Assembly (NCBI GenBank): GCA_963921795.1
Contig: OY997649.1
Coordinates: 28,557,362-28,621,361 of the forward strand
DNA length: 64,000 nt
Direction of reading: 5' to 3'
Origin: Nannobrachium achirus
Lineage: Eukaryota > Chordata > Actinopteri > Myctophiformes > Myctophidae
In this document: in pieces, positions 5,108-63,600 of the stretch
How positions within the stretch are numbered: the first letter of the stretch is position 1
How the letters are laid out: every line of letters begins with the position of its first letter
Notes under the pieces: model-generated
Told to the model about the DNA's origin: nothing
Seen by the model: the letters and a program-made list of their open reading frames with translations, nothing else
Database searches by the model: none
Program-made: the position numbers and the translations under genes

Positions 5108-5172
5108 GAAAATAGCTGATCTACAAGCTCTCAACACGTTGTGCTGCGAGAGCTTGTAGATCAGCTATTTTC
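5108..5172. repeat. Short hairpin element (BglII-type palindrome family)
   Basis: Two arms, GAAAATAGCTGATCTACAAG and its complement, flank a short GTT/GCTGC loop. It is one of about 16 related palindromes in the window. This copy is free-standing, with no recognisable host transposon around it. Confidence 0.75.
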
Positions 5173-5934
5173 GGAGTTGCGCAACCCAGCACTCTTTAGC
5201 TAGTGGAGATGTGGTGTAATGTCATGATTCCTAATTACATTTGTTCAACACAAAATGCTGTGTTCAAGTTCAGGAGACTTCGGAAAAAAGCAATTTACCT
5301 GAATGCTGAGTTCTGTTTCCACTAATTGGTGTTAATAAAATGTTGCCTTGGCTCCAAGTGTGGCTATGCGCCTTATTGTCTCTTTAGGATCCTTCTGCCG
5401 TGGGCCGGCAGAAGACTTAGGTGTGCGTAGCATTCCTGTGCACTACCTCATCATCCATCTACTACTACAATTCTTTCTTATCCCATGTTAAAGCCCTACA
5501 ATAATATCCTGTTCAGAAATATTAAGGCCATCTTATCCTGGGTAATTGTTTAATCAATCAGTAAAGTTCAGTACTCACTAATAGGTAGGTTAAAACACAG
5601 TTTGCTTTGACACATGAAGATATGATCATACGGTGTGACACTAAATCATTTGGTGTGACATTCCAAATAGTGAAAAATCATACCTTTATTAATGATTAAA
5701 CCAAAAAAATGTTTATGGATTACATAGAGAATATTATCAGGAAGAGTCACAAATATTTGTGTAATTTTAGAGAAAGTTTTGACAGAATACATTTAAAATA
5801 TGTTGTAAGATCATGAACATGGGCCTCACACAGAGTGTCGATTATGAAAAAAATATACAGATATAATTAATTTTCAAAAAACTATAGTGGATCACTGGTT
5901 AGTTATGATAAAGGACTTTGATAAAGTGAGTAAC

Positions 5935-6465
5935 TTAAAGCTATACTGTGTAAGATTCTCAACTAGTGGTCAGTAGCCATATAGCAAACCGCGGTCGCGT
6001 TCGCGTCTTTCGCCCGTTTTTCGTACCTTCACACCCCCGCGTCTGCCTCCACAACGCCGAGAGCTATCTTTAGAGGGGTCCCTGGTTCCTGTGCGTTCAG
6101 GCATTCCGGAGAAACGGACTACTTCACCCTGCCTGGTAGGCGAGATTAGCTTTTGAGTAAAGAGACACACGGGCGACTACAAATATGGCGACCCCACTTC
6201 AAGATGCGCTGCATTGGCCGGTAGTGTACCATGTGTGCATGATCGGCGATGTGATTGGGCAACGTATACACAACGTATACAGATGATGCAGATTACGTCA
6301 TCATGGCGCGAAATTCTCCCCCCCTCACGGCTCATAGAAAACATATAAAGAGAAGGCTTCAGAAGCTGAAAATAACGGAGTGGGTGTTCTAAAACTTTAG
6401 CGATTTAACAGTTAGGACAATTTTAAGATTTGTTTTATAAAAAAAGTTACATAGTAAAACTTTAA
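5935..6465. mobile_element. Candidate MITE, TTAAAG...CTTTAA ends
   Basis: The left end TTAAAGCTATACTGTGTAAG matches the reversed right end TTAAAGTTTTACTATGTAAC at about 16 of 20 positions. The interior (about 5985-6330) is CpG-rich and non-coding. The ends include TTAA, so a TTAA or TA target is possible. Superfamily not assigned. Confidence 0.5.
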
Positions 6466-6726
6466 GAAAGATGTACTCCATTTTCATTTTATGAACAATT
6501 ATTTTCATGTCACACCATATGATGATTTTAGGCACAAGTACAACAAACTGCTGAATAAAGTCTGATTCCAATAAAATATCTAAAAACAAAATGTATTTCC
6601 ATAAGGTTGAGAGTGAGTAGAACAAAAGTAAATAACTTTTATGCCTGCAATTTAAAGTTTTTTTAAAAACAAATTTTTTGGGGCGTCACGTCACTGACCC
6701 ATATGCCTCAGAGACCACCTCTAAGA

Positions 6727-8819: not shown

Positions 8820-9239
8820 CAGGGGCGTCACTCACAAGGGGTAGGAAAGTGGGACTGAGTTACTAGGGCCCAAGGTGGTGGAGGGGCCTTAATTATTTTA
8901 TACTTTAGCTATTGAAAAATAGCAGATATACAAGCTCACAGCGCGGCACCGAGTGCACGCGAGTGCCCATCTCAATATTTTGAGATGGGGTTCCGTGGCC
9001 AAATACATACCATTTTGGGGGTCCTTCACATGAAAAGGTTTGAGCTCCACTGACATAGAAACATAAGTTTTTCCAAAAACCTCAGAAGGATTTGAAATAT
9101 TCAAAGATTTTCATGATTTTTCAAAAATAGCAGATCTACAAGCTGAGCTTGTATATCTGCTATTTTTCAATAGTTAAAGCACAGGGGCCCCGCAGTGAAT
9201 CCTTGTACCCAGGGCCCAGAATTTGGTGCGACACCCCTG
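8820..9239. mobile_element. Non-autonomous hAT element carrying two hairpins
   Basis: It begins CAGGGGCGTCACTC and ends GTGCGACACCCCTG. Flanking octamers CCCCTGGC (8812-8819) and CCCCCGGC (9240-9247) differ at one base, consistent with an 8-bp hAT target duplication. It contains a truncated hairpin (8911-8950) and a full one (9122-9170). A second copy of the element, inverted, lies at 17677-18204. Confidence 0.8.
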
Positions 9240-9923
9240 CCCCCGGCCCTCCCCCTTGTCAGTCTGTTCAGGACGTTAAAAGCTGGCAGGAAGGATGCAC
9301 ACAAGGCTTGCCAGAACACTGATCATTCCCACCTAGTTTCATGATTTTTGATGATGCCTTTATTTCAGTGGAACAGTGTAGAATAGATTGACAGGAAAAG
9401 CAAAGGTCTGTTGGGCTCAAACCCAAGACTCGCTTTCGGGCTGCATCGTGGCAGTGGTGTAAAGTAACTTACTTAATACTATACTTAAGTACAGTTTTGA
9501 GGTATTTGTACTTTACTTGAGTATTTCCAATTTCCAATACTTTTACGTCTACTCCACTACATCTCAGATCCAAATATTGTACTTTTACTACACTACATTT
9601 ATTTGAGAAATTAAGTTACTAGTTACTTTACCCCCATTGATACTCACACAAATGCATTTGTGTCCCCATCCAAGGCCTTTTTATTTGGGTCCCAAATCCA
9701 GGCCCATGCATTTGGGTCCCCATCCAGAATCAATGGGGGTAAATTTACTCTAATACATTTTTGTCTTCGAAATGCGACAAATACAAAAAAATATTATCGA
9801 ACTCAAGTCTCCATGGTGTGACGAATCAATAGAAAAAAAGTCATTTTGGGGTGAACTACTCCTTTAACCACTTTAGCCCTATTTTATACCTAGGCTGTTT
9901 GAAAATAGCCGATCTACAAGCTC

Positions 9924-12020
9924 ACCTCTTGATTGAGTGGGGAAGTTGCCAAGTACTACCGAGCAGGATGATTGTATTTATGTTCAAGAGTGCTTACTTA
10001 GGTTATCTAATGTTACATGTTCTATGTTGATGTGTTGGTGCCTACATGTACCTGTAATGTCTTTGGACAAGAAAAGAGTCTGGTTTATAAATAATCATGG
10101 AATTGATTCAGAGTTGGTATGGTCCAATGGGAGGGGTTAAACCTTTAAGAGGGAGACCTGCCATTGCTCTAGAGGCAGTCAATGAAGGACTGGGGTTGAG
10201 TTAAGACCTAATGCCAACTGCTGGCCAGTGAAATGTATAGTTTGACTTTGTGCTGTGCCTATTTTGATCGTTTTTTCCTGGACACTGTTAAGAAGAGGTG
10301 AATAAAACATTTGGCTTTTTGAAACATCGGACTCTGACCTCTACTTTTGAATATGTTGCTCTTAGTTGTTGGAGTATTTTGAGTATCAAGTATTTATTAA
10401 GTATAAATACACGTGCCTTGTGGCAAAACACTATCCTCACTCAGAGTCAGAGTGTGACATTTGGTGGCAGTGGTGGGATGTCCAAAGGAAAAAAGTTTGC
10501 ACAGTCAACTCAAGAATGCGTCTAGAACCGTCACCAGCAGCAAGCCATGCTCTTGAAGGAAGAAAGTGCCATAGGGGGGAGCCGTCGCGAAGGCTTCCAG
10601 CTCAGGTGGACATGACCACTTCCCAAGGGGCGAGTTCTACAACCAGGGCCTGCTGCCGGAGTCATTCACGCAGTCCCGGAGGAAGAATGAGAAGGAGACT
10701 GAAGTTCAGCGGCCTCAACCACCAGCTCGCACAGCTCCATTTGCGTGTATCCAATTGGGTGAATATTCAACCTGAGACCAACTTCATCGTGCTCCGGACA
10801 TTGAGGCAGCCGTGGCACAGCCAAGGGTGCCTGGTGGGTCAGTGTGGCCTGTCGGTGGCAGCGACAGAGTGGCGGCGACAACAGGTTCTGCAGCAACAGC
10901 CGTGCCAGTGGAGGAGCCAAAGCGGGTGGGGTTGAAAGACTTGAACCCAAACAAACACAAGACCCAAGGTAGTTGCGTGCAATCCACCCTTCTATCTCTG
11001 TGCAAGAAATGTCAGAGATTTTGCAGGAGACTTCCTTTCCTAGACGCCACAGGGGGCGTCTTCAGAAGGGGGGGGAAATGTCACGGGGCAGCCCGTGCCC
11101 TATTCATGTACACCTGGATTGAGGACAAGGCACACACCTACGTTTCCATTTGACTAACTTGCCGGCCGGCTTGGAGATGGCTGGGTGAAAGTTTTGTTCT
11201 TGAACTTTTTTCCTTTGGACATCCCACCACTGCCACCAAATGTCACACTCTGACTCTGAGTGAGGATAGTGTTTTGCCACAAGGCACGTGTATTTATACT
11301 TAATAAATACTTGATACTCAAAATACTCCAACAACTAAGAGCAACATATTCAAAAGTAGAGGTCAGAGTCCGATGTTTCAAAAAGCCAAATGTTTTATTC
11401 ACCTCTTCTTAACAGTGTCCAGGAAAAACGATCAAAATAGGCACAGCACAAAGTCAAACTATACATTTCACTGGCCAGCAGTTGGCATTAGGTCTTAACT
11501 CAACCCCAGTCCTTCATTGACTGCCTCTAGAGCAATGGCAGGTCTCCCTCTTAAAGGTTTAACCCCTCCCATTGGACCATACCAACTCTGAATCAATTCC
11601 ATGATTATTTATAAACCAGACTCTTTTCTTGTCCAAAGACATTACAGGTACATGTAGGCACCAACACATCAACATAGAACATGTAACATTAGATAACCTA
11701 AGTAAGCACTCTTGAACATAAATACAATCATCCTGCTCGGTAGTACTTGGCAACTTCCCCACTCAATCAAGAGGTTCACCACAGCACTAAGGAGAGACAG
11801 GTGCCAACCAATCATAATTAATCACCCCATGATTACCACCACCACAATGCAAAACATTTCAACCATTAAAATGCATAGGGAAATAAATTCACTGTTCAAG
11901 AACAAAACTTTCACCCAGCCATCTCCAAGCCGGCCGGCAAGTTAGTCAAATGGAAACGTAGGTGTGTGCCTTGTCCTCAATCCAGGTGTACATGAATAGG
12001 GCACGGGCTGCCCCGTGACA
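9924..12020. mobile_element. Rearranged, internally deleted Gypsy-type LTR retrotransposon
   Basis: Pieces in order: a 5'-truncated plus-strand LTR (9924-10459) ending GTGTGACA; a primer-binding region TTTGGTGGCAGTGGTGGGAT from 10460; about 600 bp of internal sequence with no intact frame; a G-rich polypurine tract ending GGGGGGGGAAA before 11079; the first 127 bp of a plus-strand LTR (11079-11205); 35 bp of inverted primer-binding region (11206-11240); and a complete 780-bp minus-strand LTR (11241-12020). No pol domain is present. The left end lacks the LTR start, so the target duplication cannot be read. Confidence 0.75.
11241..12020 (-). repeat. Complete 780-bp LTR (minus orientation)
   Basis: Read on the minus strand it starts TGTCACGGGGCAGCCCGTGC and ends GAGTGTGACA, with TGTCAC/GTGACA termini. 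Bases 11241-11775 are the reverse complement of 9924-10459, and 11894-12020 of 11079-11205. Only 11776-11893 is single-copy in the window. Confidence 0.8.
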
Positions 12021-12167
12021 AACGTATCGCATCGCGACGCGTTGTGAGCTTGTAGATCTGCTACTTCAACCATTTTACACTTATACCGGTATATTGCAGT
12101 ATTGATACTTTTACTTAAGTAAAATATGTGAGTACTTTTTCCACCACTGTGCTGTGGTATGCGCCTT

Positions 12168-14424: not shown

Positions 14425-14562
14425 AAGCCAGATTTATGCTCTGATGAACGACAATGTCGCATGCCAAAAATAGCCGACCTACAAGCTCACAATGCTCGCG
14501 GATGCAAGGCTTTGTGAGCTTGGACGTCTGCTATTTTTAGGTGTGGAGCATAAATTAGGCTT
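14425..14562. mobile_element. Short MITE enclosing a hairpin
   Basis: The ends AAGCCAGATTTATGCTCT and (reversed) AAGCCTAATTTATGCTCC are 18-bp terminal inverted repeats resembling PIF/Harbinger-type MITEs. Most of the interior is one member of the dispersed hairpin family (14464-14541). Confidence 0.6.
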
Positions 14563-14570
14563 GTGCAATA

Positions 14571-15613
14571 TAGTCCAGTCATTTTAGGGTTAGACCCGGA
14601 ACAAATTGCAATAGTAGCAAACTCAACTGATTCTGTATCCTCATTATGTCCTTAGTGAGGGAAAAAAAGTCCCAAGAAATCCCACCGGGGCAAAGTTTTG
14701 AAAACGACCTATCTACCTTCACTTACTATACACTACAATATAAAGGAAAAAATGACTGAAAAAAAATCTGCTTTAAGTGGGATGTGAGGGGTCTAACTAG
14801 GGGTTTGTCATCATGCTGAATCCATTGCAGGCATTTGTTTTGCACAAAAAACATTCTGTGGGCTAGAAATGGCCTTAGAAAACAATACACGTATGGGTGC
14901 GTTTTCATGTTAGTCGGAGGCCTTAGGGTTTTTTTTTTTCTCGTGCTAATCAGTCTAAAAGTTCAAAATTTTGCACAGATGTAGTTCAGGGCATGCTCTA
15001 ATGATTTAGCTAGGGCGCCCGAGTCTGCAACATTCGGGGTCGCCACAGCGGCCAAATCAAGTTGGGCTCCCATCGACTTTAGTGATGAAAAGTGATGAGT
15101 CATCACTTTTCAGAGTTTTGTTGGTGCTGTGGCGACCCCGAAGGTCGCAGACTCGGGCGCCCTAGCTAAATCATTAGAGCATGCCCTGAGCTACATCTGT
15201 GCAAAATTTTGAACTTTTAGACTGATTAGCACGAGAAAAAAAAAACCCTAAGGCCTCCGACTAACATGAAAACGCACCCATACGTGTATTGTTTTCTAAG
15301 GCCATTTCTAGCCCACAGAATGTTTTTTGTGCAAAACAAATGCCTGCAATGGATTCAGCATGATGACAAACCCCTAGTTAGACCCCTCACATCCCACTTA
15401 AAGCAGATTTCTTCTCAGTCATTTTTTCCTTTATATTGTAGTGTATAGTAAGTGAAGGTAGATAGGTCGTTTTCAAAACTTTGCCCCGGTGGGATTTCTT
15501 GGGACTTTTTTTCCCTCACTAAGGACATAATGAGGATACAGAATCAGTTGAGTTTGCTACTATTGCAATTTGTTCCAGGTTTGGACAAATTTTGGCCTAA
15601 AATGACTGGACTA
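14571..15613. repeat. 1.04-kb near-perfect palindrome (foldback element)
   Basis: The sequence runs from TAGTCCAGTCATTTTAGG to its complement. The symmetry centre is near 15099 (AAAAGTGATGA-G-TCATCACTTTT) and each arm is about 520 bp. The arms differ by a few substitutions and one indel of about 10 bases close to the outer end. The trinucleotide ATA lies directly outside both ends. Matching short ORFs in both arms are mirror images, not genes. It is probably a foldback or MITE; the family is unknown to me. Confidence 0.85.
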
Positions 15614-16757
15614 ATAGCAGGAACAGCTCAGCATTTTGGAGAACATCAAGTCAACTTTCTGGAACATCAGTGGTTCTCACAGTGGGGTTGGGGACCCCCA
15701 CAAGTCCTTGAGGTGGTTCTAGGGGGTCCCCAGCAAAAGCATTAAAGCATTCAAATCAGTTTAACCAAATGCAATTCAGTTTGAGGGTCCTTGATAATTA
15801 ACACAAAACATGTGTTAATTATTTTCCATACTAACTGGTTTCTATGTTTATTTTTGCCATCAAAACATGTTGATTGTTCAGTATACAGTCTTTATAGGCT
15901 ATGCCTCCTGTACAGTCAGCAGTAGGTTACACTGGTTTGGGTCCCGGGCTAAATGTCTAACCTTTCTTTTGGGTCTTGAGACTTGAGCTAAAAAGTTAAG
16001 GAACCACAGGTTGTTAAAATGGAGCGTTAAATTAACACTCAGGAGTTTACAGTGTAGAAGCACTATGTTAGTTTAACTATGTATAATTGACCTTTAGGTC
16101 CAATTGAATGAAGACTGGGGAGTGTGTATGTGTCCCTCTATATAATGACCCACCGTATATATAGGAACCTTTCTGTGACATTTCTCTGCACCCACCCTTC
16201 TAAACAGCAGCTTCAAGCAACACCTCTGTGCCATGCAAGGTCAGCAAGTATACGGTACCTGCTGGTATCTTTGTAGACCAAGTCCATACAACAACACCCC
16301 ATTCTATTCTACCCTTCTCTTCTCTTATATTTATCTCTTTTCCCCCTTTCAATTTCCCTGCTGCCAGTGGGTTGGGTGCAGCTTGCATGCGTGGGTGCAC
16401 CACGTGTGTGTGGACTGGAGGTGGGGATATATGCTGCTGTACAAAAAAACGACTACATTGACCTAGTATCCTTTTTACATTTATCTTTGTTGGAAAATTT
16501 TACAGGTTTGCCTGTTCTGTTTTCGCCTGGAAGGAGAAAGGAAGAAGAAGGTAAACAATGGGTTGTGAAACAACTGGAGAAGGAGGCAGTGCAGAGGACT
16601 GCCTGCATTGTCACTGAGACCAGCCGTATTCTATTTCTGTTCAGCAAGAAGCCATTCCCTTAATTAGAGTCCCTTGAAGCAATATCATTTGGAAATATAC
16701 AAGTGATTTGATTAATGGGTTTTACTGACTTCTATCTTCAGCTGTTAAAGGAGCCCA
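15614..16757. other. No gene; one hAT relic
   Basis: Bases 15667-15740 (CAGTGGTTCTCACAGTGG and onward, with GGGGACCCCC motifs) are a decayed relative of the hAT family at 58191-58562. The rest shows nothing recognisable. Confidence 0.5.
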
Positions 16758-17676: not shown

Positions 17677-18204
17677 CAAGGGTGTCGCACTTCTGGGCCC
17701 TGGGTACAAGGATTCACTGCATGGCCGGCCCCCATGAATGTTGTTCATAGACTGGGAACGCACTATTACGCATTATTTTGCATGCTTTAACTATTGAAAA
17801 ATAGCAGATATCCAAGCTCAGCGCGGCACCGACTGCCACGCTGCGAGTTTGTAGATCTGCTATTTTTGAAAAGTCATGATTTATTTTTTCAGTTCCTATG
17901 TCATTGGTGCTCAAAATGTTTCATGTGAAGGACCCCCAAAATAATATGTATTTGGCCACGGACCCCCCCCATCTCAAAATATTTAGTTCCAGGGCCCCCC
18001 CAGAAGTTACAAATGTTTGCTTAAAAAATACATATTTTCAAAGATTTGCACATATTTTCAAAATCAGCAGATCTACAAGCTCGTAGTGAGCTTGTATATC
18101 TGCTATTTTTCAAAAGCTAAAGTATAAAATAATTAATGCTCCTCCACCTTGGGCCCTAGTAACTCAGTCCCACATTTCCCCCCCTTGTGATGCCCATGCC
18201 CCTG
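17677..18204. mobile_element. Non-autonomous hAT element, second copy of the 8820 family
   Basis: Inverted relative to 8820-9239. It begins CAAGGGTGTCGCAC and ends near CCCATGCCCCTG. It shares the GGGCCCTGGGTACAAGGATT start, a central region with runs of C, and the GGGCCCTAGTAACTCAGTCC end. It holds two full hairpins (17793-17870 and 18056-18115). The octamers flanking it do not match. Confidence 0.65.
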
Positions 18205-20440
18205 CATCACAAGGGGGCATCACAAGTCATGTCATGTGGGACATGACTGTCATGTGGGAGCAGCTTCCCTCAAAGGCCACACCCCACAAATGCAGCAACA
18301 CAATAATAGGACATTATCGATCTGGGAAATGTCCAATAATGCCTTCATTGAGACCGTTTGTATATAAAAGACATCTTAAACTGTTGGTGCTATACTTCAT
18401 TTCAGGAGAGAAGCATACAGTTCTTTGATTTTTGTTCTTTGATAAGTGGCACTTTTCAAATACACCACACTTAAAAATCGCCTTCACACAAAATATGACT
18501 CTATCCAATCTTGTCCATTTTGAATGGTAACGACTGGGCCTCTCTGCAGGTTCATACATCATTCCCATTACAAAGGATCCTATTACAAATCCCATTTGAT
18601 TTTTTTATATTGTATGAAATAACATTTATCAAAAGGACAATCCACGTGAACCAAGACATCCTTTATTTATGATTCTCTTATGATGATTCATTGAACACCT
18701 ATACAGTAGATAATGCAGTGTATTCATCAAAGTCTCATATAGATCACAGAGGGTTGCACATGCACAAAGATTGGCCCTATCTTTGGGTTTTCATGAGTTG
18801 GGTGCTATCATTTCATGATCAATTTCACCCTCAGTAATGTAAAATGGGATTTGTGCACTGGAGAAAATAGGAAGTATATATTTTGTAGAACAAAAATAAA
18901 ATAGTAAAAGCTAAGCGTACATATATCCACTTATAAATGATTTCAGTGGAGAAGGAAATCAATAGCTCTCTGGCTGTGTTTCTGCCAGTTTGATGGAGGT
19001 GGTTGGTGTTCAGGTACAAAGACAGATCTAGTTGTTAGTTAGAAATCAATCAAATCCCAAGCATTCTATTTGAGGAGTGTCAAATGTAGGGCAGCAAACT
19101 GTGCAACAGTCCATTTCCAAGCACCGGGGTTCAGTCATGTTGGAACAGAGTAAGCCACACCAGATGCATAGTAAAGATGCAAGCTATAAATGTAATTGAA
19201 ATGAAGCTACACAGTATATCCATTACGGTAACCTGCAATCTGATTACTGTTTTATTCAATGAGCAACAGCATTTTCTATCATTTAACATCCTTTGCAACA
19301 ATAAATAAACGTTTAAATTACAAAAAAAGGAAAACAAACAAATAAGGGGAGTGAAATAAAGTTGATCAATTAAACAAAGGTTCTGCTGTGGTTTTAATGA
19401 TTTCTAATTAAATCTTGTGAATTTTGCTCCATTACAAAAATATCTATATTCAGTCGTATCTCGTTGATTTTACATTTTTTCCTAGTATGCTGTCCTCTGC
19501 TCTTCAGTTCTGTGATATATTGTGGATATTTGACAGCTATATCTGCTGACAATTGCCACATAAAGGCCATGTTTACTGGACGTGTCCTTTTTGTGAGTAT
19601 GTTTGTGTGTGTGCATGTGCATGTGTGTGTGTGGGGGGGGGGCTCTGTGCAAGGTCTAAAGTACCATTGTCTAACTAGCGAGGTCACACAAATTAAGTCA
19701 CCATATAATGACAAGTATGAATAGCTGTTTGTGTGAGTTGCCATAATTGCACCGTTAGGAACCATTACCTGTTCTTCCCAGGTGAGATTATCAAGGCAAT
19801 GGTCTTGAACTAATGACCAGAACATTGAGCCCACATGCCGGTGCCAACTGCTCAGCTCCAAGCGACAGACAGAATGTCTTTGAGGTGAATCACCAATTAG
19901 CTTTTCTTCCAGGTTCGGGGAGGATTCGTTAAAATCATTAGTGGCGATGGATTATGGTGTTCCTGCTTCTTACTTCTCTGTAAGCTCCCAAAGCATATGA
20001 AATCGTTTTAAGTTATTGCATGTTCATAACACTGGTGGGTGAAGTCAAGGTTGAATATCTACCTAGTTTTATTAGTCATGTAGATCAGCCTAATGGCGAA
20101 CTTTGATCTATTGTACAACTGTACATTCCCACTTCTTCCCCACTCATGGGGAATTGAAGAAATAATATATATATATAAAGTCATAGTTCAGCTAACCCTA
20201 AGCCTGATGCACCTGTCCAACATTTCTACAAAATGCCTGTCTTAATCAGGGTGACTTAGGTAATTCAGAATCAACTTTATTGTCACATCACAGGTTTGCA
20301 GGTCTAAAACAGTGTGTGAAATTCGTTTTGGTCATTTACATACCGGTAAAAGAGAAAGATTGTGCTGTTTTAATGGTTACAAGGGACATGAACATTGCTA
20401 TAAGCTTACAGTACATTAAGTGAAAACATTTATGTTCAAC
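18205..20440. other. No recognisable gene
   Basis: Mostly AT-rich unique-looking DNA with small palindromes near 18200-18260. A 155-codon minus frame (19394-19861) has no domain or exon signals. A fish-type dispersed repeat (TCAACTTTATTGTCACATCA) begins near 20270. Confidence 0.55.
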
Positions 20441-21461
20441 AGTGTAAAAAAAACATCACAAGGATGCAACTGGGACGTATCATCAGTGATGTAGCCTGGG
20501 GTCGACGGGTGTTTCGGGTCTCGCAACATCATACACCCTCGCCCAGGTGACCCAGCCGGGGTTGATCAAGTCCTGACTTACGTCCCAGTAGCTATCCACG
20601 ATCAGTCCTATTAGGGAAAGACAGGGTCACTCAATGTGCTGCACCGGAACTACTCTGCCGGGATTGGGGGTACCATTCTGGCGCGTGGAAGAACTAGGCT
20701 CTATGGGTTGACTCCTGGCCGGGCTCCTCCTACGTCTCACCAGGTCCTCCCCTGCTCTCACCAGGTTCAGAACCTGTGCGTTGCACCAGACCCCAATCCA
20801 AACATTCCATTCAGCTGCTGCAGTTGAATGGCCCTCCTAAAGGCCTCACCGTGGATTTGTTGGGCTTCTTCCTCACGGAAGACACAGGCTGGGGCGCTAA
20901 CCCAACCTGCTCCCGGGTGCCGTCTAAATTCCGGCCGTCAACCGAGTCTCCGGTGGTCACCAAACTATTCCTGGTTGTCACATAGTCTATTCCTATGAGC
21001 CACTATAAATAGAACTAATAGTGTAAAAAAAACATCACAAGGATGCAACTGGGACGTATCATCAGTGATGTAGCCTGGGGTCGACGGGTGTTTCGGGTCT
21101 CGCAACATCATACACCCTCGCCCAGGTGACCCAGCCAGGGTTGATCAAGTCCGGACTTACGCCCCAGTAGCTATCCACGATCAGTCCTATTAGGGAAAGA
21201 CAGGGTCACTCAATGTGCTGCACCGGAACTACTCTGCCGGGATTGGGGGTACCATTCTGGCGCGTGGAAGAACTAGGCTCTATGGGTTGACTCCTGGCCG
21301 GGCTCCTCCTACGTCTCACCAGGTCCTCCCCTGCTCTCACCAGGTTCAGAACCTGTGCGTTGCACCAGACCCCAATCCAAACATTCCATTCAGCTGCTGC
21401 AGTTGAATGGCCCTCCTAAAGGCCTCACCGTGGATTTGTTGGGCTTCTTCCTCACGGAAGA
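20441..21461. repeat. 579-bp tandem duplication of a dispersed repeat
   Basis: Unit 20441-21019 is followed directly by 21020-21461, which repeats its first 442 bases with only a handful of differences, so the period is 579 bp. The identical 63-codon frames at 20636 and 21215 arise from this duplication. The CpG-rich unit (GGGTCGACGGGTGTTTCGGG) looks like retroelement-derived sequence that I cannot assign. Confidence 0.85.
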
Positions 21462-25825: not shown

Positions 25826-26374
25826 CAGGGACGTGCTGGCCATTGGGAAAAGCGGGACAACTCCCGAACGGCCGGGCCGGTCCAGGCCGGCCATTAGGAA
25901 CATTTTTAAAATAAAATGTCAGCCTTCGTTCCATTTTGGGGGCTGGGTGGCCAACAAAGTAAATCGCCACTGTCGGGCAGAAACCTCGTATCTCCAAGTT
26001 TCAAATTGATAAATTTTTTCGCAAAGCAAAGCCCTGCTTCATCATACAAGGCCGTTGCACAAAAGTGGTGAAAACAGCAGATCTACAAACACATAACGTG
26101 TGCTTGTAGATCGGCTGTTTTCACTAGTTTAAATCATTTTTAAAATGATAAATACAAAACAAACGGTTTTGGACGTATAAGGTTTCCACCCGACAACGAC
26201 GAAATATAACTCATGTACAGTAATTGGCCCACTGGCTTGTCACTTGTCATGATCTGAAATGGCAAATCTTTGAGTAGCAGCAGCGCTATAGATCTCTCTA
26301 TAGCGCGCAATGAGGGCCTCCCGGCCTCTCCAACTCTTTTTCCCGGGCTGAATCAGGGGCCCAGCATGTCCCTG
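25826..26374. mobile_element. Non-autonomous hAT element with perfect 8-bp target duplication
   Basis: It begins CAGGGACGTGCTGG and ends CCAGCATGTCCCTG, flanked on both sides by TGCCAGAT (25818-25825 and 26375-26382). It encloses a dispersed hairpin at 26068-26124 and a small palindrome GCGCTATAG...CTATAGCGC near 26285. No transposase frame. Confidence 0.88.
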
Positions 26375-29215: not shown

Positions 29216-29339
29216 TATTGTTGGCGTTAGCTGTTTTGCTACTGGCCTTGCCTGTGCTCACGCTAATACACGCTTTTCTGCCTTAGACTCTCGGCTCCTG
29301 TGTCGACGCTAAAGCTATTGGATAAAAGCTATTTTGGAT

Positions 29340-30692
29340 ATGGCGTCCTCGCGCTCCTATGGCCGTTGTGCTAACCCTGCCTGTAGGTTGCTGGTAGCCC
29401 CGGACGATCTGCATGGTGCGTGTATCGCCTGCATGGGCTGGCGTCACGCCTTGGATGCTCTGGAGGAAGATCCTCCTGTGTGTTTGGAGTGTCGCGACCT
29501 ACCTCTAGGTGCGCGTCGGCTCCGCCTGGACACAATTTCTCTTCTCTCGGGTCTCGCCTCTGCTGTTTCCCCGGGCCTCCCTGTAGGCCGGTGCGGCGGT
29601 GACCCTCCGGCGGTTGGCGGCGCTCCTCCAGGCGGCGGCGGCGGCGCCTCCGTTCCGGCCGACGGCGCCGCTCCCCCGGCCGATGGTGGTGCCTCTCCAG
29701 CCCACTCCAGGGCTGACAGCTATTCATCTGAGTTTTCCTTCTCTGCTTTCGACCGTCACGATAGCGAGGAGGCTATTGGGGAAGAGGGGGACTTTTCCCC
29801 CACCCAGCAGCCTGATGAGGACGTGATCTTGATGGAAGTAGGGTCCCCTGTGATCCATCTCCACCCTGATGAAAATGACTCGCCTCTCTCTACTCATGCC
29901 TCCATCGCTGCTGTGGCCAGGGCCCCGGCAGGCTTCGCTGCCGCCCCGAGTCAAGCAGCTTCTGTTCCTCCTGCCACCACTCAGGCCGGGACTCAAGCAG
30001 GCCTTGCTGCTTCCCCAGCCCCCGGTGGCACTGAGCCTGCTCCCTCCGCCTTGCCGGAGTCACAGGCCTCCTCTGCTGCCGGCAGTTCGAGCCTGACACA
30101 GGCGGCGGCCTTGTCCGCGTCTCAGCTCCCTCCTTCCGGCACCGTAGCAGCTTCAGGTGGCGCCACTGGTGCCAGCCCTCCCCTTCCCATGGACCCCTGG
30201 TCTGTGCTGGAGAGGGCCGCTCGCTTGCAGAACCTCACCGTCCCTGTACGGCAGCAGCCTGCAACTTCTCGTCAACCGCGGCTGGGCGTGGACCGTGCTC
30301 CGCTCCTGCCGCCTGTCATGGCTTGCCTGCCGGCCATCACTGGCCTACAGCAGGTTCTCCAGGAGACTTGGGCCACTCACAAGGATCCGGAAAAGCTGGA
30401 CTACTCCACGGAGTTCGAGGGGGCGCAGGAGATGGGCATTCCTAGATGCCCGCACATCAGCCCTGCCTTGGCCTCCATGCTCCAGGCCCGGTTCCTCCAT
30501 GACAAACCTGGTGAGACCAGTCCCTACTCACTGTCGGTTGTCCACCCGCTCCTGGAGGACAAGTGGGAAAGGTTCATGGCCAAGGCCACCCAGGAGGCTT
30601 ACAGAGCTGATGGACATGCTGTAAGGGCTCTCAATGCCGCGGGCCTGTTGGCGGCCTATGTGAAGCTCCTCCAGAACCCACCGGCCTCTGAC
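29340..30692 (+). pseudogene. DIRS gag, N-terminal part (interrupted)
   Basis: This frame of 451 codons from ATG 29340 ends at a TAG that is the first codon of an inserted hAT element. The N-terminus carries a Cys/His cluster (CANPAC, then HGACIACMGWRHA, then CLEC), typical of fish DIRS gag proteins and probably metal-binding. A long Ala/Pro/Ser-rich low-complexity middle and a more ordered C-terminal segment (ITGLQQVLQETW and onward) follow. The reading frame resumes in the same phase after the second copy of the target duplication. Gag presumably forms the particle in which reverse transcription occurs. Confidence 0.8.
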
Positions 30693-31927
30693 TAGAGTTC
30701 TCAAATTCGGCCCGAACCCGACCCTACCCGACCCGACCCGACGTTATCGGGCCGAGCCGGGCCCAAAAATTATAATAATTAGTCGGGCCGGGCCGGGCTC
30801 CGGGCTCCGTCACTCAAGCAACAGAGAACAGACGCATATTGCTGTCTGCCTGTCTTCAGCGCAGCACTGAAACCTGCCTAAGTTCCTAACCAATGGACCA
30901 AGGATAATCGGTGACGCATACGGAAGTATAGTCTATCATTCTCATAGAGCAGTCTGGTTGTTGTGATGACATCACAATCGAAACCTTTGGATATACGGAA
31001 GTCTGTCACAGGCAGCGAGTCAGCGTTAGCTCTGTGTGGAGCGGCCACGATGAAAGTTTGGAGCTGCATGTTAAATTAAAAGGCAGCAGGCAGTTTCACA
31101 AGTTTGTAATAAGTTATAAATCGAAGAAAAGTACATTCAAAGCGGAACCAACCTGGATATTATTGACAAGGACTTAAGAGGATTGTATTAACAACAACAT
31201 CAACATGACCAACCTAAAAGCACCATACGTTGACATCCTCTTACCTTATAGAGACGATCATCTCGGCTGGTAAGATATTATTAATTCCATTATGCTTTCT
31301 GGTTAATCAAGTGTCCTTTGCTGCTGCTGTGTGCATTTATATTAAAGGGTTTACAGCCGCAGCGCGCCGCTTATTACGTGCCTGAGTTGTATATGTTTAA
31401 GCATGGTGGTCAGGTGGTGTCGCGCACTAAACAACAGATCTGCAAGCCCAGGATGCAAGCCAGATGAACACGTTTTGGGTTTATAGATCTGCCGAGCCAG
31501 CTGCTGCCTGCGTTTGATGCGTGACCGTTGAAAGGACGAAACATAAATCACGCAGGCAGCGACAACGGCAGGGAGAGAGAGGATGAGAGCTGTATGATTG
31601 AGATTGACTGTTGACAACAACAGGGATTTAACGTTAGCACATTTTGTGCAGAACCTTGCATGTTTCATGAACAATTTAACATGTGAAGTTGCCATTTCGC
31701 CAACTATTATATGTCCGTTCTCTCACTGTTGTAATTTGAGACACTGGTGATGCCAGCTGCCTACTGGCGACGTTTCTTTTTTTTTCTCTCTCTCTCTCTC
31801 TCTCTCGGGCTTTCGGGTTTTCGGGCCGAAAATGATGATAATTGTTAGGGTCGGGCCGGGCTTCGGGTCGGCCCACTCGGGCCCAGTTAGGGCCGGGCCT
31901 TAATTTTCAGGCCCGTTGAGAACTCTA
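30693..31927. mobile_element. hAT element inserted in DIRS gag
   Basis: A perfect 12-bp terminal inverted repeat, TAGAGTTCTCAA...TTGAGAACTCTA, is flanked by perfect 8-bp duplications CCTCTGAC (30685-30692 and 31928-31935). The sub-terminal regions are rich in GGGCCGGGC. The 1,235-bp body holds a (CT)n tract (31783-31806), a divergent hairpin (31431-31493) and no transposase frame, so it is non-autonomous. Confidence 0.93.
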
Positions 31928-31935
31928 CCTCTGAC

Positions 31936-32898
31936 CCTTCCCTCGATGTGGCGGCTGAGATCAAGGCCTCACTGGACCTCATGATCGAGCTCAATTTCCA
32001 TGCCATGGCTTGGGTGGGGCGTTCCATGGACCAGTGTATGCAGATGGAGTCCACCCGCTGGCTGGAGCCCATTGACTGGAAGAAGGAGGAAGCGGACAAA
32101 AAAGAGCTTCGCAACCTGCCCTCTTCTGGAACGGAGATCATGGCGGGCGGGCTCGCTCTCTTCCAGGCGCGGGCGGCTGCCAGGAAGGAGACCAGGGAGT
32201 TGGTGGTTGAGACTGTACCTCCGACACCTGCTGCCCAGTCTTCTCAGCGGTCGGCCACCAAGCAGCGTACCCCGCGTTCTATGGTGAGGGTCGTCCACAG
32301 GACCGACTACAGGGACAGGGCTTCGGGATCAAGCTCCAGGTCTTCCTCCAGGGGGGGTCTCGAGCCCAGACCCACGGGCCCCCTCCTGCTTCCAGGCCCA
32401 AGGAAGACCGTCATCAGCAGCGTTCCCAGCCCCGCTCCGCGAAGGGACGCGGAAGGCAGCAGCGTAAATGACTGTTTGCCCAGGGAGGCACGGCCTCCCC
32501 AGGGGCCTCTTGCCCCTCAGTTGAAGGCGGGTTCTTGTGTGCAGTGTGTTTGTGTTGTGAACCCGCCCGTGTTGTGTGCTGCAAAAATTCTGACTGCTGT
32601 AAATTTCGTGCCTTGCCAGTCGAAAATACCAGTAAAGAATTGTGTGTTCGATACAAACTGTGTCTTTCTTCCCTGTGCATCTTCTGCTGTAAAGAAAGTT
32701 GTATGTGCTCAGCCTCCTCAGGCACCTTCGCTGCCTCAGCTAGTTCCGCACTCACACAGTCTGTACAAGGGTTTGGTTTCTCGGCCTATTCAGGCTCCAG
32801 TTCCTTCTCTGCTAGAGCCACTCACACCCAGCTCACATTCCCCTCCTCACGAGGGCAGCATAGTTCACAACTTCACACTCCTCACAAGGTTTTGGTAA
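31936..32898 (+). pseudogene. DIRS gag, C-terminal part
   Basis: This continues the gag frame after the hAT insertion. The first third (LDLMIELNFHAMAWVGRSMD) is conserved-looking; a basic Arg/Ser-rich stretch follows (SSRSSSRGG), suggestive of nucleic-acid binding. The frame stays open to 32898, but the biological end may be near 32470, because the RT frame opens from about 32535 in another phase. Confidence 0.65.
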
Positions 32899-34958: not shown

Positions 34959-35007
34959 GTCAAGCGGATCGCGAGATCTTCCACCCGGACCCTCAGAGGT
35001 TAGACCT

Positions 35008-37442: not shown

Positions 37443-37659
37443 TATTTGAGAAACATTGAGGACAATTTTCCAACAAGAGAAATGATTGTTTTATGGTTAA
37501 AAACTATTTTTAGTTTTTAACAAGCCTCCAACATTTGTGAGCAAGAAGATCTGCTATTTTTAGGTAGCCTCGTGAACCAGCCTCTCCCGGAAATTTACAT
37601 TTTAGGCACTTTTCAGCTATATTTTTAATGGTCCTTGATGTCCTCTCAACTAGTAATAC

Positions 37660-49735: not shown

Positions 49736-49815
49736 GTGCCAAAAAAGAACAGATCAAGACAACACATCAATTGTCGGGCAGGATGCGTTGATTGTAGATC
49801 TGTTCTTTTGGGCAC
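49736..49815. repeat. Divergent hairpin of the dispersed family
   Basis: The arms GTGCCAAAAAAGAACAGATC and (reversed right) GTGCCCAAAAGAACAGATCT surround a loop with GATGCG. The AACAGATCTACAA core links it to the other hairpins. Confidence 0.6.
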
Positions 49816-49847: not shown

Positions 49848-50343
49848 CAGTGGTTCTCAACCTTTTCAGGACGTGACCCCCAAAATAATCATATTTTAAC
49901 TGGGGACCCCCCACCCTGATGAGCACTAAGAGTGGAGGAATTACATCTTGTATAATACGGTTCTATTGTGAAAATAGCAGATCTACATCGGCTATTTTCA
50001 CAATTTCTGCCTCTAATATTAGAAGATTTGGCCAATGTTTAATTTGTCATTTTAGTAGCCTAGTATTAAAAAGTTCTTAAATGGTCATTTGGTGGACCCT
50101 CTATGCCAGACGGAGCCGGAGGTAAAGCCATGTGTTTAGTTTGAGGGGAGCACATCTTGCGGGGAGCACTGCCTTTTGGCCCGGCCCTCCACAATATTTT
50201 CTGTTGTTCATGTGAAATAAAAAATAATAATTGCCCACCCCTGCTCTTTACTGTTGAGTAAGAAAACAATGTTGCACATTAAGTTAATCATCTGGGGACC
50301 CCCAAATAATTTGGGGACTCCCCTGGGACTCCCGAACCACATG
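49848..50343. mobile_element. hAT-like element (CAGTGGTTCTCAACC family), 3' end lost
   Basis: The start CAGTGGTTCTCAACCTTTTC and end block CATCTGGGGACCCCCAAATA match the complete copy at 58191-58562. The final inverted repeat is missing where a second hAT element begins at 50344. It contains hairpin 49965-50004. Confidence 0.65.
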
Positions 50344-50876
50344 CAGTGGTTCCCAAACTTTTCAGGTCGAGACTCAGAAGAGACATTAGACATTTGCCTG
50401 GCACCCAAAATAGTGAAAACAGCAGATCTACAAGCTCATGACGCGTGTTGCGAGCATGTAGATCAGCTATTTTCACAACTTCTTCAACATTTGTTTTCTA
50501 ATTTATGGAATTTCTTAGATTTTTCATTAATTCATTAATGAAATTACTAAGAAAAATCATTGCATTTTTTTCCATTTTTGGGAAAAAGGTTTGAAATAAT
50601 AATAAATAAATAAAAATTGGAAACAAAAAATCACACCTAGTGAGGGCTGAGCAGTGCTATTTATGAGTTAATTTCATCAAGTGTCCGCTAGCCAATCACA
50701 GCACGATCTGCGAAGCTTGGCCAATGGGACCCTGGCGTAGGCTACAACAAACTTTGTCCCCAGACCATTTTGATTTTGGTGTTCCAGACCAGGAGCACCG
50801 CTCAAAAATAAATGGACCCAGAAAAATATGTCTGCGACCCACAAATGGGTCCCGACCCAGTGTTTGGGAACCCGCG
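50344..50876. mobile_element. hAT-like element (CAGTGGTTCCCAAAC family)
   Basis: It starts CAGTGGTTCCCAAACTTTTC and ends near GTGTTTGGGAACCC, with imperfect inverted ends. It holds a full hairpin at 50413-50476. Confidence 0.6.
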
Positions 50877-57600: not shown

Positions 57601-60600
57601 GGGAGAAAAGGAGGGGCCTAGTACAGATCTCAGGGGGACTCCGGTTAGGAGGGTGCGGGGGGACGAAAGCAAACCTTTCCAAGAGGGTGCCATGGCATTG
57701 GTCCGAAGGTTCATTAGTCCGAATTTGTTAAGAATACTATTAGGGATGCCCCGATCAGGGTTTTTTTGCTCCCGATCCGATACCGATCAAATATTATTGC
57801 TTCCGATTCGATCCCGATCTTTCCCGATCCGATCTTTTGGCAAGGCATTAAGAAAAAAAAATTCTATTCATTCTATCACTTAGTGCAGCACTGAATCAAC
57901 AAATTAAAAACAAAGCTTATGAGTAGTGTATAGTGATATAGGCCTACTAGTGCAGTGTTTCTCAATCATTGTGCAGCGGACCTTTGGTGTGGCCTTTGAA
58001 ATTTGGCAGTGAAGTCACGATTTAAGGACTTTTAAAACCTGTTTAATACCTCAAAAAATAAAATAAAATAGACCATTACAGCATCAAAAATAATCAACAA
58101 ACTATATAAAAACTGGTAAAACATTGGCCATTTTTAAAGTTGAAACAAAATAAGTTAAGAACCAATTAACCAGTCTGCTTTAAAAGTATGCAGTGGTTCT
58201 CAACCTTTTCAGGCCGTGACCCCCAAAATAATCATATTTTAACTGGGGACCCCCGACCCTGAAGAGTTGAGGAAGTATATTTTGTATAACACGGTTCTAT
58301 TGATCGGCTATTTTCACAATTTCTGGCTTTAATATTTGACAATTTGGCCAATGTTTAATTTGTCATTTTAGAGGTATTAAAAAGTCCTTAATTTTTCACT
58401 TTCGAAATGTGCAGATACCCTCTATACACTTAAACTTTATGTTGATTTGTTTACTGTTGAGAGAGAAAACAATGTTGCACATTAAGTTAATCATCTGGGG
58501 ACCCCCCCAAAATAATTTGAGGACCCCCCTGGGGGTCCCGACCCACAGGTTGAGAACCACTGAGCTAGTTGACAGTGCAGAGAGACATAATTGCCTTCCT
58601 TTGATCCATTAGCAAGGGGCCAATTACTACTTATTGGCATCAGCTGCCAGCTGTACACAGAGTCTGACACAATCACCTTCCCTCTGCAGTGCTCTGTCTG
58701 TCTCATTTCTCCAAAAGCCCTTGAATATGATTGAAAATTATTAAGGATTACTGTGATTATGGTAAGCTTACATTTCATATCGCATTCACCTTACCTGTAA
58801 CTTTCAGTACTCCCAGAAAAAAAAAATTGGAAAAAAAAAAAAATTCGATTTTTTTTCCCCCGATCTCCGATCTTATAAAACCGGCCATATCGGTGGCCGA
58901 TCCGATCACGTGATCGGGATCGGGCAACCCTAAATACTATGCCTAACTCTAACCCCAAACCTAACCTCAGTAACCCTAACTAAATTCGGACTAATGAACC
59001 TTCGGACTTATGGGCCAATAGACCTGGTTTATGTCCCCATGTAAAGCGTCTTTGGGTACATGGAAAATCGCTATATAAATTCTAGATATTATTATTGTTA
59101 TTATTATTATTAGGTCCGGTCAGTTAGGTAGGAGGAGAACCACTTTAGTGCCACCCCAACGATGCCTATGTTGGACAAGGGTGTCCAGGAACAGCTGGTG
59201 GTTCACTGTCAAATGCTGCTGAAAAGTCTAGAAGAATCAAGACTGCAGAGTGGGAGACATCCTGGGCAGCATGAGTGCTTCTCTAACAGTAGTACCACAC
59301 TGGGTACTGCTGAGAACAGCTACAACCTGGTATTTGTACAAACAAGTACTAGTATTGCATAAATGTATGTGACATGCATTCCCAACTTGCATTGGGACCG
59401 ACTAGGACTGTCAAGGAATATTCTATAATTGAATATTCTATCGAATGTTAACAATAAAAGAATATTCGACTGTAAAAAATTAAGCTTCGATTAAAAAAAT
59501 GTTTATAAAAAAGAAATCGACCGCAGTTCACGTGAGATTCTGGGCGCATGTAACGTTAAAAGGCGCCTGGTCTCGCGAGGCAGTAGTCTTCACTCGCCGC
59601 TGCAAAAGTGAGCTGATCTACAAATCCACAATGCGTCGCTGATCCAATACGTTTGGGCTTGTAGATTAATGGGTGGTTTAGCGACACCGTCATACAGCGA
59701 AGAATAAACCAGCTGCTGTTTCGCTTCACACTGACCGTCCGACTTGCAGTCGCAGACAGACAGCACATACAGTGCTAGACTTGCTCACGTTTAATCACAC
59801 AATGTAACTTTAATTGATTCAGAATGATAACGATTCAAGCTGAAACGGGCGTCGGGCGATTCATTTGGTAGTGAAGGGAAGGCAGACTGTTTACGAGACT
59901 TGGCCACCGAAAACACGATGTAAAAAGCATGGGGTCTCACGGCATCGAGTCTCACGGTTTCCCCCCACGGCCACGGTAAAACTCCCTCCATGTCACACTA
60001 CTCTTGTAGACTACCTTTCATTGGTTTCATTATAATTGCCCGTTTCATGTCATGGTTGTTCCAACTTCCATGACAGCATAATGGGCGCATTGTCGGTGCG
60101 ACACGTTCCTGTTCTCCAGACAAGCCCGGACTTGTATCAAATTATCAAAACCATACAGCGTAATTAAAATTAGTCTATAGAATAAAGTAATTATGAATCA
60201 TTAATTTGATCTAGCAAGAGATTGCATTTCTCAGCACCTGCGTAGGTCTACTGTATATAGGCTATAGAGAAATAAATAGACTGCATACAATATTTTATGG
60301 ATATTAATGGATTCGATGCTCCGAATCCCCGGTGGGTTTTAAAGGGAATATTCGATTGTCATTGTTGGCCAATTTTGATAGCTTTAGTCCCGACTTGAAT
60401 TATTTCTTCGTAGGCCGGTGCCTGTGATAATGGGTACAGCACTGGGTACTCTTAACAAGAGGTACAGTGACTACTCTCGAAAACCTGTTCGACAGGTTTC
60501 GCACAACCCGGGTGGGGCTTACATTCCCAATTTGCATCGTTCCCGGCTTGTGTTTTTGGCGTGATTCCTAAACCCACCAGGATTGACTTAAGACCCACCT

Positions 60601-63600
60601 CCTCTCGATAATCTTAATAAGTATGAAAGTGCCCATGAACGTTAGTGCTGCTCGCTCAAGTGCAAAGTACCTACTACCTACTGATCCATTACAATAATAC
60701 ACACAGCATAATACGCCCAAAGCCATATCCAAACCATAACAATTTAACTGATAATCAGTAAGAGTTTTTATTTTGAGCACAGTAGTGACAAATGAATAGC
60801 TTTCTCAGTACGTTTTTCTCTTTAGCAAAGTTACAAAGTTTTCCCTTTATTAAATAAGCACAGTACAATTAAGTCAGTTTCAAGTTTTTTTTAATAGCAC
60901 AGTTTATTTTGAGCACTGTAGTGAGAAATTAATAGCTGTGCATTGTGCAAATGCAGGCTTTTCTCAAGTACAAGTCTTCATGCCTCTGACTTTATCCACC
61001 CTCTATGTGTCAGGAAGGGATTTCAGCCACTCCTGGAAGTCCTCGCGTTTCCGCGAGGCGGGTCTTAACTCAAGCCTGGTGGGTTTAGGAATCACGTGTG
61101 TTTTTGTTGTGGTCCCCGAGTAAGCCAGTGCCCAAAGGGCACCAGTCTAACTGTACCTCTAGGCTCAAGAGGTACAGTATAATGGTACCTCTTTTAGTAT
61201 TCAATCCAATAGGTATAATAATAATTTGTGTTATTGTCCGGGAGAGCGGACAGCGCAACTCACTAAAGGTCCTGACCCACTGCAAGCGTCAGACGCGCAA
61301 AACATGTTGAGGTGTGTTTCAGAGCTCTGTTCTATTTAGGAGCGTTGACGCAGAGCACAGACCTGAGAGAATGGAATGATGGAGTACAATCCAGACTCGC
61401 AGTGCGTGTGTCTGTTTTTCGATGCAGTTCAAAATATTAATAATTGTGATGCGGTCTGTAATTGTATTTATTTGCAATGATACATGGATGAGATAAGTGC
61501 CACAGTAGTAGTTTATTTTCGGACTTCTGTGCCAGTGTTGAAGACGGCTACAGGGACAATACAGACTGTAGGCACAGAGGCTCATTACAAAACGTGAAGA
61601 AATACATTACACAGACAAATATATCTATATTTTCACATAGCCAGGAAGTGCAGGAAGTATAGTAGACATTTAGAAATGAATCTCATGTGAAAACGTGCAC
61701 TGATCTTGTGTGGCGGAAGTTTGACATTTTACGGCAAGCTTCCTAATAATTTTTACGGGAATGTACTGGCAGAAAAAAAATGTCCCTGAAGTGAAAACGC
61801 TTGAAAAATAATGACTGGGATAGCGTCATGATGACGTGGACGAAGAGAAACAGAACATTGATTGAGAGAACACTTGAACGGTCATTGTGTACAAGAGAGC
61901 ATTAGTCTCAACAAGAGAGCGAGCGTGCGACAGGCTCCAAGTACATACCTGTTGCCAAAACTGTTCAGTGACCAAATGCTTCAGTGCAATGTTGACAATA
62001 TAGCCTCTGAGAAAGGTGAAACTTACATAATGTGTTGCATGAAGAAGATTGCTTGTCCTAAGATGTAAGTTAAAGCTCCGTTTGTAGGGAGAGGGGTGAG
62101 AGAAAATACATTGGATTACTGGTAATGTTGCAATATCTCGTGCTTACAGTCACCTCTTGTGCAAGTATAAAGCACTATACTGTTAAAATAAACAAATTAA
62201 AACGGTCGCTTATCATCCTCATGAATGAATGCAAACAAATCAAATTCTGCTCATGTATAACACTACAAAACCGGGTTCTGCATTATTCATTTCAATCAAT
62301 ACAATTTTCAACTTCTTGTTGATTCTGCTATTTGAAATGGGACTGAATCCACAGATCCAGATCTTCAAATGGTACAATATGCAGAAAGTTTCTAAAAAAA
62401 AAATAAAGAAATGCAGAAAGTGTTTTTAATGTTATATGTTGTCAGAATCAACTTTGTGTGTGTTATTACTGTCTAGTAGTCTTTATGCCTTGCACTGTAT
62501 GTGAGGTGAGGTCTATTTATTTATGTTTAAGTAAGATGAATCTTTTGCCTTTTTTAAAGACTCTTTCTAAAGCCTTGAGGATTAAATGTTGCAACTCTGT
62601 CCCTTTTGGCTTCAGGTACCAGTGTTTCGGCCCATGGACTTGATGGTGGAGGCCAGTCCCAGGCGGGTGTTTGCTAATGCTCACACCTACCATATCAACT
62701 CGATCTCTGTCAATAGTGATTGTGAGACCTACCTGTCCGCAGATGACCTGCGTATAAACCTCTGGCACTTGGAGATCACTGATCGCAGCTTTAGTATCCT
62801 TTTTCCCTTGTACAGACTTCTGGTTCAATGTGAAAATCCGGGAAAGCATCTGTAATTCTTTGATTTTTGAGTTGGTCATTCAAAAATAACAGATGTACAA
62901 GCTCACAGCGTGTCACTTTGTGTGAACTACGTTGCGAGTTTCTACATCTGCTATTCTTGAACAATCTTGAAAGTGTGAGAGCTATTGATTTAGAAGGCAT
63001 TTTTAGAATCGGCCTCAGGTCTTAATCGGTTAACCCCTATTACCAATTTAATGTTTTTATTTGGGGTCTTGGGCGTGGCTGAAAGCAACTACCTAGGTTC
63101 CACTTGTATTTCATTTGTTGGAAACAAGTTTAGTCCCTTAACCTGCAAACCTTTTCTCAGACATTGTTGACATAAAGCCAGCCAACATGGAGGAGTTGAC
63201 TGAAGTCATCACAGCAGCGGAATTCCACCCCAACCAGTGCAACACTTTCGTCTACAGCAGCAGCAAAGGAACAATCCGGCTGTGTGACATGAGGGCATCA
63301 GCACTGTGTGATCAGCACTCCAAAAGTAAGCTAAAATGAAAGCAGATGCAGCATTCCTTCTGTTACAAAGTGTTTTTTTTATGGGCACATTAAAATTGCT
63401 AATGTCTCTTTAAATATGCTAACGGCTCCTTTAACTGTTCTAGATTCTGAATACAATGTTAATTGGATAGCTGTGTCAAGGCTAGCTAATACGTTCCAGT
63501 AAGGACTGACCTCTGGGGATCCATCCATTTATCACATGATCTTAATGGAGAGTTTTGCCTGATTATGGCTTTGAGCTATAATAGTTACTACCTATTAGTA

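Follow-up and report, generated by a model that had tools for sequence, protein, structure and literature searches.

Introduction

Angel, a palindromic miniature inverted-repeat transposable element (MITE) of zebrafish, has single strands that pair with themselves, and a stem-and-loop mechanism of amplification was based on studying it, according to the available part of PMC12628747. The autonomous hAT transposon Tol2 is described, in the accessible text of PMC8151067, as harboring in its interior an Angel element that has inverted repeats. Domain sharing has a parallel among short interspersed elements (SINEs): the V domain, one of their highly conserved shared domains, occurs inside the DNA transposon MER6, in a MITE (abstract of PMC6887750). 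Here we describe a short palindromic hairpin that recurs throughout a 64,000-nucleotide stretch of the genome of the myctophid fish Nannobrachium achirus (contig OY997649.1; G000:C12:28557362-28621361 in our numbering), hereafter the window.

By description, the hairpin resembles Angel in Tol2 in being a self-pairing palindrome that lies within hAT elements; it differs in that several hAT-like families carry one and the same palindrome (compared to the parts of PMC12628747 and PMC8151067 available). With Angel inside Tol2 as precedent, the present hairpin is a variant of something known and not a new category. It shares with the SINE domains the recurrence of one short domain in different mobile elements, whereas the usual carriers of those domains are SINEs and the abstract describes no palindrome for the V domain (PMC6887750).

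The carriers reported below resemble nonautonomous hAT elements (MITEs) in their 8-bp target duplications, CAG or TAG ends and lengths of 213 to 1772 bp. To our knowledge, hAT elements are not defined by an internal palindrome common to families whose ends differ. Our literature search, directed at a palindrome shared by hAT MITEs and at Angel in fish, showed no description of the hairpin among the papers listed, within a coverage that lacks most subscription journals and thus leaves unpublished status unproven, and a search of literature text for the arm words returned nothing judged relevant. Based on the analyses below, an Angel-like palindromic module probably entered hAT lineages on rare occasions and thereafter multiplied with its hosts, a reading that we hold with moderate confidence.

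Results

The hairpin is recurrent in the window and abundant in the genome

The hairpin is a genuine recurrent feature of this DNA, in agreement with an earlier note on the window, and the hairpins listed in that note could be read at the positions it gives. Scanning the window with the arm TAGCNGATCTACAAGC (≤3 mismatches) gave 25 matches, where 100 shuffles gave 1.21 on average and never more than 6, and a covariance model matched ten copies at E ≤ 0.01, plus 31435-31491 at E 0.03. The model was trained on 33 copies of the same genome, 27 from other stretches and six from the window (5103, 14461, 17792, 26065, 50410 and 62877), and the matches of these six are by construction. Full copies comprise a 71-nt core that is a nearly perfect palindrome, within a whole of about 83 nt. 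Folding of 12 window copies was predicted to yield mostly a strong stem-loop, with weak folding for 31431 and 59608. The half copies that the earlier note had proposed at 8911-8950, at 9898-9923 with 12035-12070, and at 58300-58320 agree with the alignments; the half copy it placed at 37545-37564 and the divergent copy at 59608-59668 were found by alignment, weakly in the first case and moderately in the second, and escaped the model (Table 1).

The genome that contains the window has 1,658,514,493 bases in 564 contigs. Across it, the arm pattern AAAATAGCNGATCTACAAGCTC (≤2 mismatches) was matched 341,706 times in forward and 341,460 times in reverse orientation, compared to 0 for a reversed-pattern control. 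We also sampled 20 stretches of 10 kb, picked by coordinate with no random generator from contigs up to C15 only, in which the model found 56 sites at E ≤ 0.01 per 185,860 non-N bases, or ~300 sites per Mb. This rate extrapolates to ~500,000 hairpins per genome if the sampled stretches are representative, and the spacing is about one hairpin per 3 to 5 kb.

Single-arm matches were also encountered in 55 stretches of viral contigs and in 2 of genome contigs; these were short or weak, with a best E of 0.001 against six window copies, and were dismissed as chance. The two-arm pattern was detected 0 times in the viral contigs.

The arms change together between families

Both arms of the hairpin change together between families, and within family B the arms decay independently. 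In an alignment of 33 copies by 39 pairs (31 of the 38 full copies and two shorter window copies, the omission of seven irregular copies biasing it toward pairing), 87.4% of cells were found to pair compared to 80.1 in shuffles, and 111 cells were changed on both sides compared to 47.2. The covariation score of this alignment was 0.239 compared to 0.129 when shuffled (0/500), and was ≤0.063 when slid by 1-3 columns. Family C copies carry mostly ACATGCTC in both arms, and the two copies of family D carry AAAACAGC and AAGCACAC in both arms. In each of four families, the majority consensus pairs at 36 to 39 of 41 positions, as judged from 15 of 18 copies of A, 3 of 8 of B, 5 of 6 of C and, for D, two copies together with the previously unassigned L087:997. 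Arm identity was 0.87-0.88 inside families A, B and C and 0.70-0.84 between families. By contrast, in the 520 cells of 20 family B copies of span 111 (from 49 sequences among 100 places listed, of 941 counted), 42 changes affected one arm and 1 affected both, with 0.93 changes of both arms expected by chance. Thus, coupling of the arms belongs to the source lineages and not to the time after insertion in family B. Arm-to-arm conversion after insertion was not seen in family B. A shared cis signal, which the earlier note had offered, is a candidate reading that fits the co-changing of the arms between families.

Arms that change together on a long, near-perfect stem might also be expected of an RNA hairpin under selection, either a small RNA or a structured transcript. 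We regard this as highly improbable: G.T cells (40) were not in excess of A.C cells (50), in counts to which loci selected by an exact arm match (L058-L087), some of them overlapping, contribute, and pairing therefore looks maintained in DNA, in source elements, and not in RNA. In addition, the window had no Rfam match at gathering scores.

Palindromy beyond the core had a mean extension score of 3.8 (median 3) compared to 2.8 (median 1) for mispaired flanks, and a score of at least 10 was reached by 5 of 93 hairpins compared to 23 of 492 mispaired flanks. Long extension is thus not general, and for this reason we rejected outward growth of the hairpins through fold-back copying.

Two unusual arrangements of the arm were observed in other loci. 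Six tandem 25-bp units, each with a hairpin arm (GCTTGTAGATCTGCTGTGACTTACA), are present at L069 600-750, where the arm has turned minisatellite. At L090 4889-5922 there is a nested palindrome with the arm motif inside out (TTTGTAGATCTGTTTATT ... AAAAACAGATCTACAAA), like the diverged palindrome at window position 49737.

The hairpin is enriched within hAT-like elements of different types

A scan of the window and the 20 stretches for 8-bp duplications with inverted ends, performed blind to hairpins, returned 31 rows. These were reduced to 21 and then to 20 by a hand filter, done after hairpin content was seen, that removed rows of low complexity, rows with ends other than CAG or TAG and rows whose 'ends' were hairpin arms; two removed rows held hairpins (L091 7192-9668 and L093 6560-9489). 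A model match was found in 11 of the 20 retained hAT-like elements, compared to a mean of 3.1 and a maximum of 10 in 5000 draws of random intervals of the same lengths, none of which (0/5000) reached 11. The transposon enrichment that the earlier note had anticipated is thus found in this sample. The 11 carriers range from 213 to 1772 bp, with ends starting CAG or TAG. When flanks were assigned to a library built from the hosts of hairpins, 85 of 124 sites matched, among them 45 of 57 paired hairpins, but such assignment is circular and was not used as the enrichment test; the library label CAGGGACGTGC also takes in a nested TCGTCG element.

Hosts with typed ends appear, as read from sequence, to be mostly short hAT-like elements. 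Duplications of 8 bp (0 or 1 mismatch) flank hosts with the ends CAGGGGCGTC, CAGGGACGTGC, CAGTGGTTCTCAAA, CAGTGGTGTATACA, CAGGGGTCTTCAAT and CAGTGTTTTCACTG, as well as CAGGGTTCCCCAAT, CAGGGGTTCCCAAA and TAGGAATGGGACGA, and also CAGCGCTACTCA. Exact duplications together with matching ends were found, for example, at window 25826-26374, L097 414-867 and L107 95-539. Within the window, three hosts were typed by target duplication (8820-9239, 25826-26374 and 30693-31927), which look like hAT elements and differ in their ends, and several further hosts were placed by ends or similarity alone. A hAT-like element at L074 911-2242, with the exact duplication GTGTAGGT, has two hairpins in a larger inverted arrangement.

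When 15 host copies were compared all-versus-all with their hairpins masked, similarity was found inside end types, and in three cases across types. The earlier note had described one hairpin within elements of differing terminal repeats, and this holds; hosts of different end types show, with exceptions, little similarity outside the hairpin. The note had also named, as what would refute its proposal, descent of all hosts from one ancestor that already carried the hairpin, here taken as one ancestral hAT whose remainder diverged. Hosts typed by target duplication are hAT-like and some share short flanks or pieces, as such descent would predict. However, the hairpins retain 70-84% similarity between families while the host remainders are mostly unalignable, which requires a strong constraint on the hairpin only, and we find common inheritance quite improbable.

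Hosts are often mosaics. The CAGGGGCGTC family carries two hairpins that flank a piece resembling the end of another hAT, and this piece is 73% similar over 75 bp to the CAGTGGTTCTCAACC host. Similarity between hosts with CAGGGACGTGC and CAGGGTTCCCCAAT ends was traced to a ~240-bp palindromic element (ends near TCGTCGTTGTCGGG) with the hairpin at its center, and this element was also found, in opposite orientation, in a third hAT type (L093 2942-3493).

Most short alleles of family B point to deletion

The presence of the ~240-bp element in three hAT types and in both orientations favors another explanation, in which a very small mobile palindrome, either alone or at the center of a palindromic MITE, inserts through machinery of its own and prefers MITEs. 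The copy at 14461 points the same way: it is central in a stretch of ~134 bp that is bounded by inverted ends and was not typed as a hAT. We consider repeated self-insertion unlikely, based largely on family B (ends CAGGGGTCTTCAA), whose exact flanks enclose a gap of 62-92 nt 941 times and a gap of 0-30 nt 113 times, these being the two classes searched. Among 100 listed short alleles, a word test detected pieces of both arms in 48, of a single arm in 41 and of neither in 11; 23 are joined at a GATC that is present in both arms, and 7 read AAAATATTTTT. Retention of arm pieces in 89 of the 100 points to deletion for most short alleles, and not to empty sites. In family B the hairpin is thus commonly lost through deletion, and the comparison of copies with and without the hairpin that the earlier note had called for, carried out here for family B short alleles, found no convincing empty site.

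Four identical short joints (CTTTGGCTAAAG) in separate loci, in otherwise ordinary copies, keep no arm piece; they fit deletion between TTTG repeats and leave some room for an old empty site, which would favor self-insertion. The sole hAT copy that lacks the 240-bp element (L093 3782-4760) has, by our reading, extra bases at the joint and so is no clean empty site, and no constant target duplication at the palindrome was noticed by eye. For family C, 309 short alleles of many lengths were counted, of which 3 sequences were seen, and a stricter pattern found 1. In the aligned family B copies, the hairpin or its remnant was found at one constant place, as expected if it was acquired once and the host was then amplified.

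Copies, hosts and other structures of the window

Coordinates of the window copies and their hosts are listed in Table 1. The copy at 5103..5177 lies in a longer repeat common to locus L084 (aligning over 5034-5946, 90.5%) that is not a recognized hAT. The ~134-bp stretch around the 14461 copy (about 14427-14560) has inverted ends GCCAGATTTATGCTC / GAGCATAAATTAGGC, as read by eye. In the CAGGGGCGTC family, 17783-18204 aligns with 9181-8820, and the flanks of the 62877 copy resemble this family (17754-17879 versus 62840-62970, 69%). Target duplication was not demonstrated for 5103, 14461, 62877 and others. The ~240-bp MITE with the hairpin at 26065..26127 is nested in the hAT-like element 25826..26374. 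Element 30693..31927 breaks the first long frame (460 amino acids, 29313-30695) of a retroelement, presumably DIRS-like, with frames at about 29313-36075. The gene around 62877..62963 we take to be PPP2R2-like.

Table 1. Positions of hairpin copies and of hAT-like elements in the window. E values refer to the covariance model unless an alignment is named.
Feature	Position	Evidence	Context
Hairpin, full	5103..5177	E 4e-13 (training copy)	
hAT-like host	8820..9239	Ends CAGGGGCGTC/CAGGGGTGTC; target duplication CCCCTGGC/CCCCCGGC, one mismatch; scan for duplications and inverted ends	
Left hairpin half, other arm lost	8911..8950	Alignment to 17772-17869	
Hairpin	9118..9172	E 1e-10	
Left half of split hairpin	9898..9923		Interrupted by insertion, 9924 to about 12020
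Right half of hairpin split at 9898..9923	12035..12070	Arm match and alignment, as for 9898..9923	
Hairpin	14461..14543	E 3e-12 (training copy)	Mid-point of ~134-bp stretch
Hairpin	17792..17872	E 1e-13 (training copy)	Host is CAGGGGCGTC-family element, about 17677-18204
Hairpin, second of host about 17677-18204	18055..18115	E 8e-10	Inverted arrangement
hAT-like host	25826..26374	Ends CAGGGACGTGC/CAGGGACATGC; exact target duplication TGCCAGAT	
Hairpin	26065..26127	E 8e-11 (training copy)	Center of ~240-bp palindromic MITE (ends near TCGTCGTTGTCGGG)
hAT-like host	30693..31927	Ends TAGAGTTCTCAA; exact 8-bp target duplication CCTCTGAC	
Diverged hairpin	31435..31491	E 0.03	
Possible half hairpin, weak	37545..37564	Alignment, 32 nt, E 0.005 versus 14511-14542; no model match at E ≤ 1	
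Diverged palindrome related to hairpin	49737..49814	E 0.004	
hAT-like element	49848..50341	Start CAGTGGTTCTCAACC; pieces align with 58189-58547, 80-90%; without target duplication evidence	
Hairpin, central deletion	49965..50004	E 3e-5	
Hairpin	50410..50479	E 7e-12 (training copy)	Second hAT-like element, start about 50344 (CAGTGGTTCCCAAAC)
Hairpin remnant, left arm lost	58300..58320	Alignments	Same place as 49965; element about 58191-58562
Diverged hairpin	59608..59668	Alignment, 82% to 12019-12066, E 1.4e-5; no model match at E ≤ 1	
Hairpin	62877..62963	E 3e-12 (training copy)	Between coding stretches

The insertion 9924-12020 had been described as a long terminal repeat (LTR) element; it carries instead 574-bp inverted repeats (9924-10497 versus 11775-11203, 99.8%), and not a plain direct LTR pair, together with a second inverted pair of 127 bp (11079-11205 versus 11894-12020, 100%). 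Other structures of the window include a very long palindrome at 14564-15619 (~92% to its own reverse complement), two 300-nt direct repeats at 20438-21316 (99% alike, with starts 579 bp apart), CA repeats, and open frames that we take to be zinc-finger frames.

Discussion

In the reading that we prefer, the hairpin is a palindromic DNA module, with a core of ~71 nt and a whole of ~83 nt, that sits inside many short hAT-like transposons. Passage between hAT lineages may have occurred only a few times, by capture, by ectopic exchange or through a palindromic MITE that inserted on rare occasions; the module would then have been multiplied in cis by hAT transposase working at the host ends. Least certain is why sources would stay palindromic: a DNA hairpin may be selected in the source because it aids multiplication, for example on single-stranded DNA at replication forks or during gap repair, in line with the stem-and-loop model based on Angel (PMC12628747), or fold-back copying may restore the palindrome in sources. 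Inserted copies would subsequently decay, often with loss of their center, for example through slippage from the GATC of one arm to that of the other.

Several observations weigh against rare entry followed by multiplication with the host. Some host types are not unrelated outside the hairpin: adjoining the hairpin, 69 bp are common to the CAGGGACGTGC and CAGGGTTCCCCAAT hosts at 90%; L081, whose ends are CAGAGATG, has a family B copy inside it (matches 59 to 216 bp long, 65-84%) and shares 68 bp at 68% with the CAGTGGTTCTCAACC host; and the family C host begins with sequence that, over 75 bp, is 73% similar to part of the family A host. Nine of the 20 hAT-like elements were without a model match, and 12 of the 57 paired hairpins of the window and the 20 stretches have flanks that match no typed host, although one of the 12 (L100:6296) aligns with a CAGGGACGTGC-type element. 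hAT elements are not the whole story, as the window copies at 5103 and 14461 lie in other repeats; within the window, 5103, 14461, 37545, 49737 and 59608 are without a typed host. Family E hairpins are mutually only 0.77 alike, and independent decay of the arms inside a family was observed in family B only. Nothing in these sequences demonstrates that the hairpin helps transposition. Regarding a source of transposase, 150 matches to the hAT dimerization domain PF05699 were scored of 1653 first-look candidates, many of them stop-free, compared to 0 of 14 in control genomes; no autonomous hAT with the hairpin was seen among the sequences covered, which did not include the flanks of the PF05699 matches, and these matches are unlinked to the host families.

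A stronger proposal is offered only tentatively, and we would not expect it to hold in full: the hairpin may be a DNA module that acts in cis, whether selfish or helpful, and passes from one hAT lineage to another unrelated one. It would be kept palindromic only in sources because the folded hairpin raises multiplication, and would form a DNA-transposon counterpart of the domains shared by SINEs.

How MITEs attain their very high copy numbers is an open question for which hairpin-based models already exist. One palindrome in several families, with different ends and with its own versions, constitutes a set of replicated natural tests. Families with an intact palindrome may be compared to their deletion derivatives, and the palindromy of source copies may be compared to that expected. 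The coupling of the arms between families and their uncoupling in family B already limit the mechanism.

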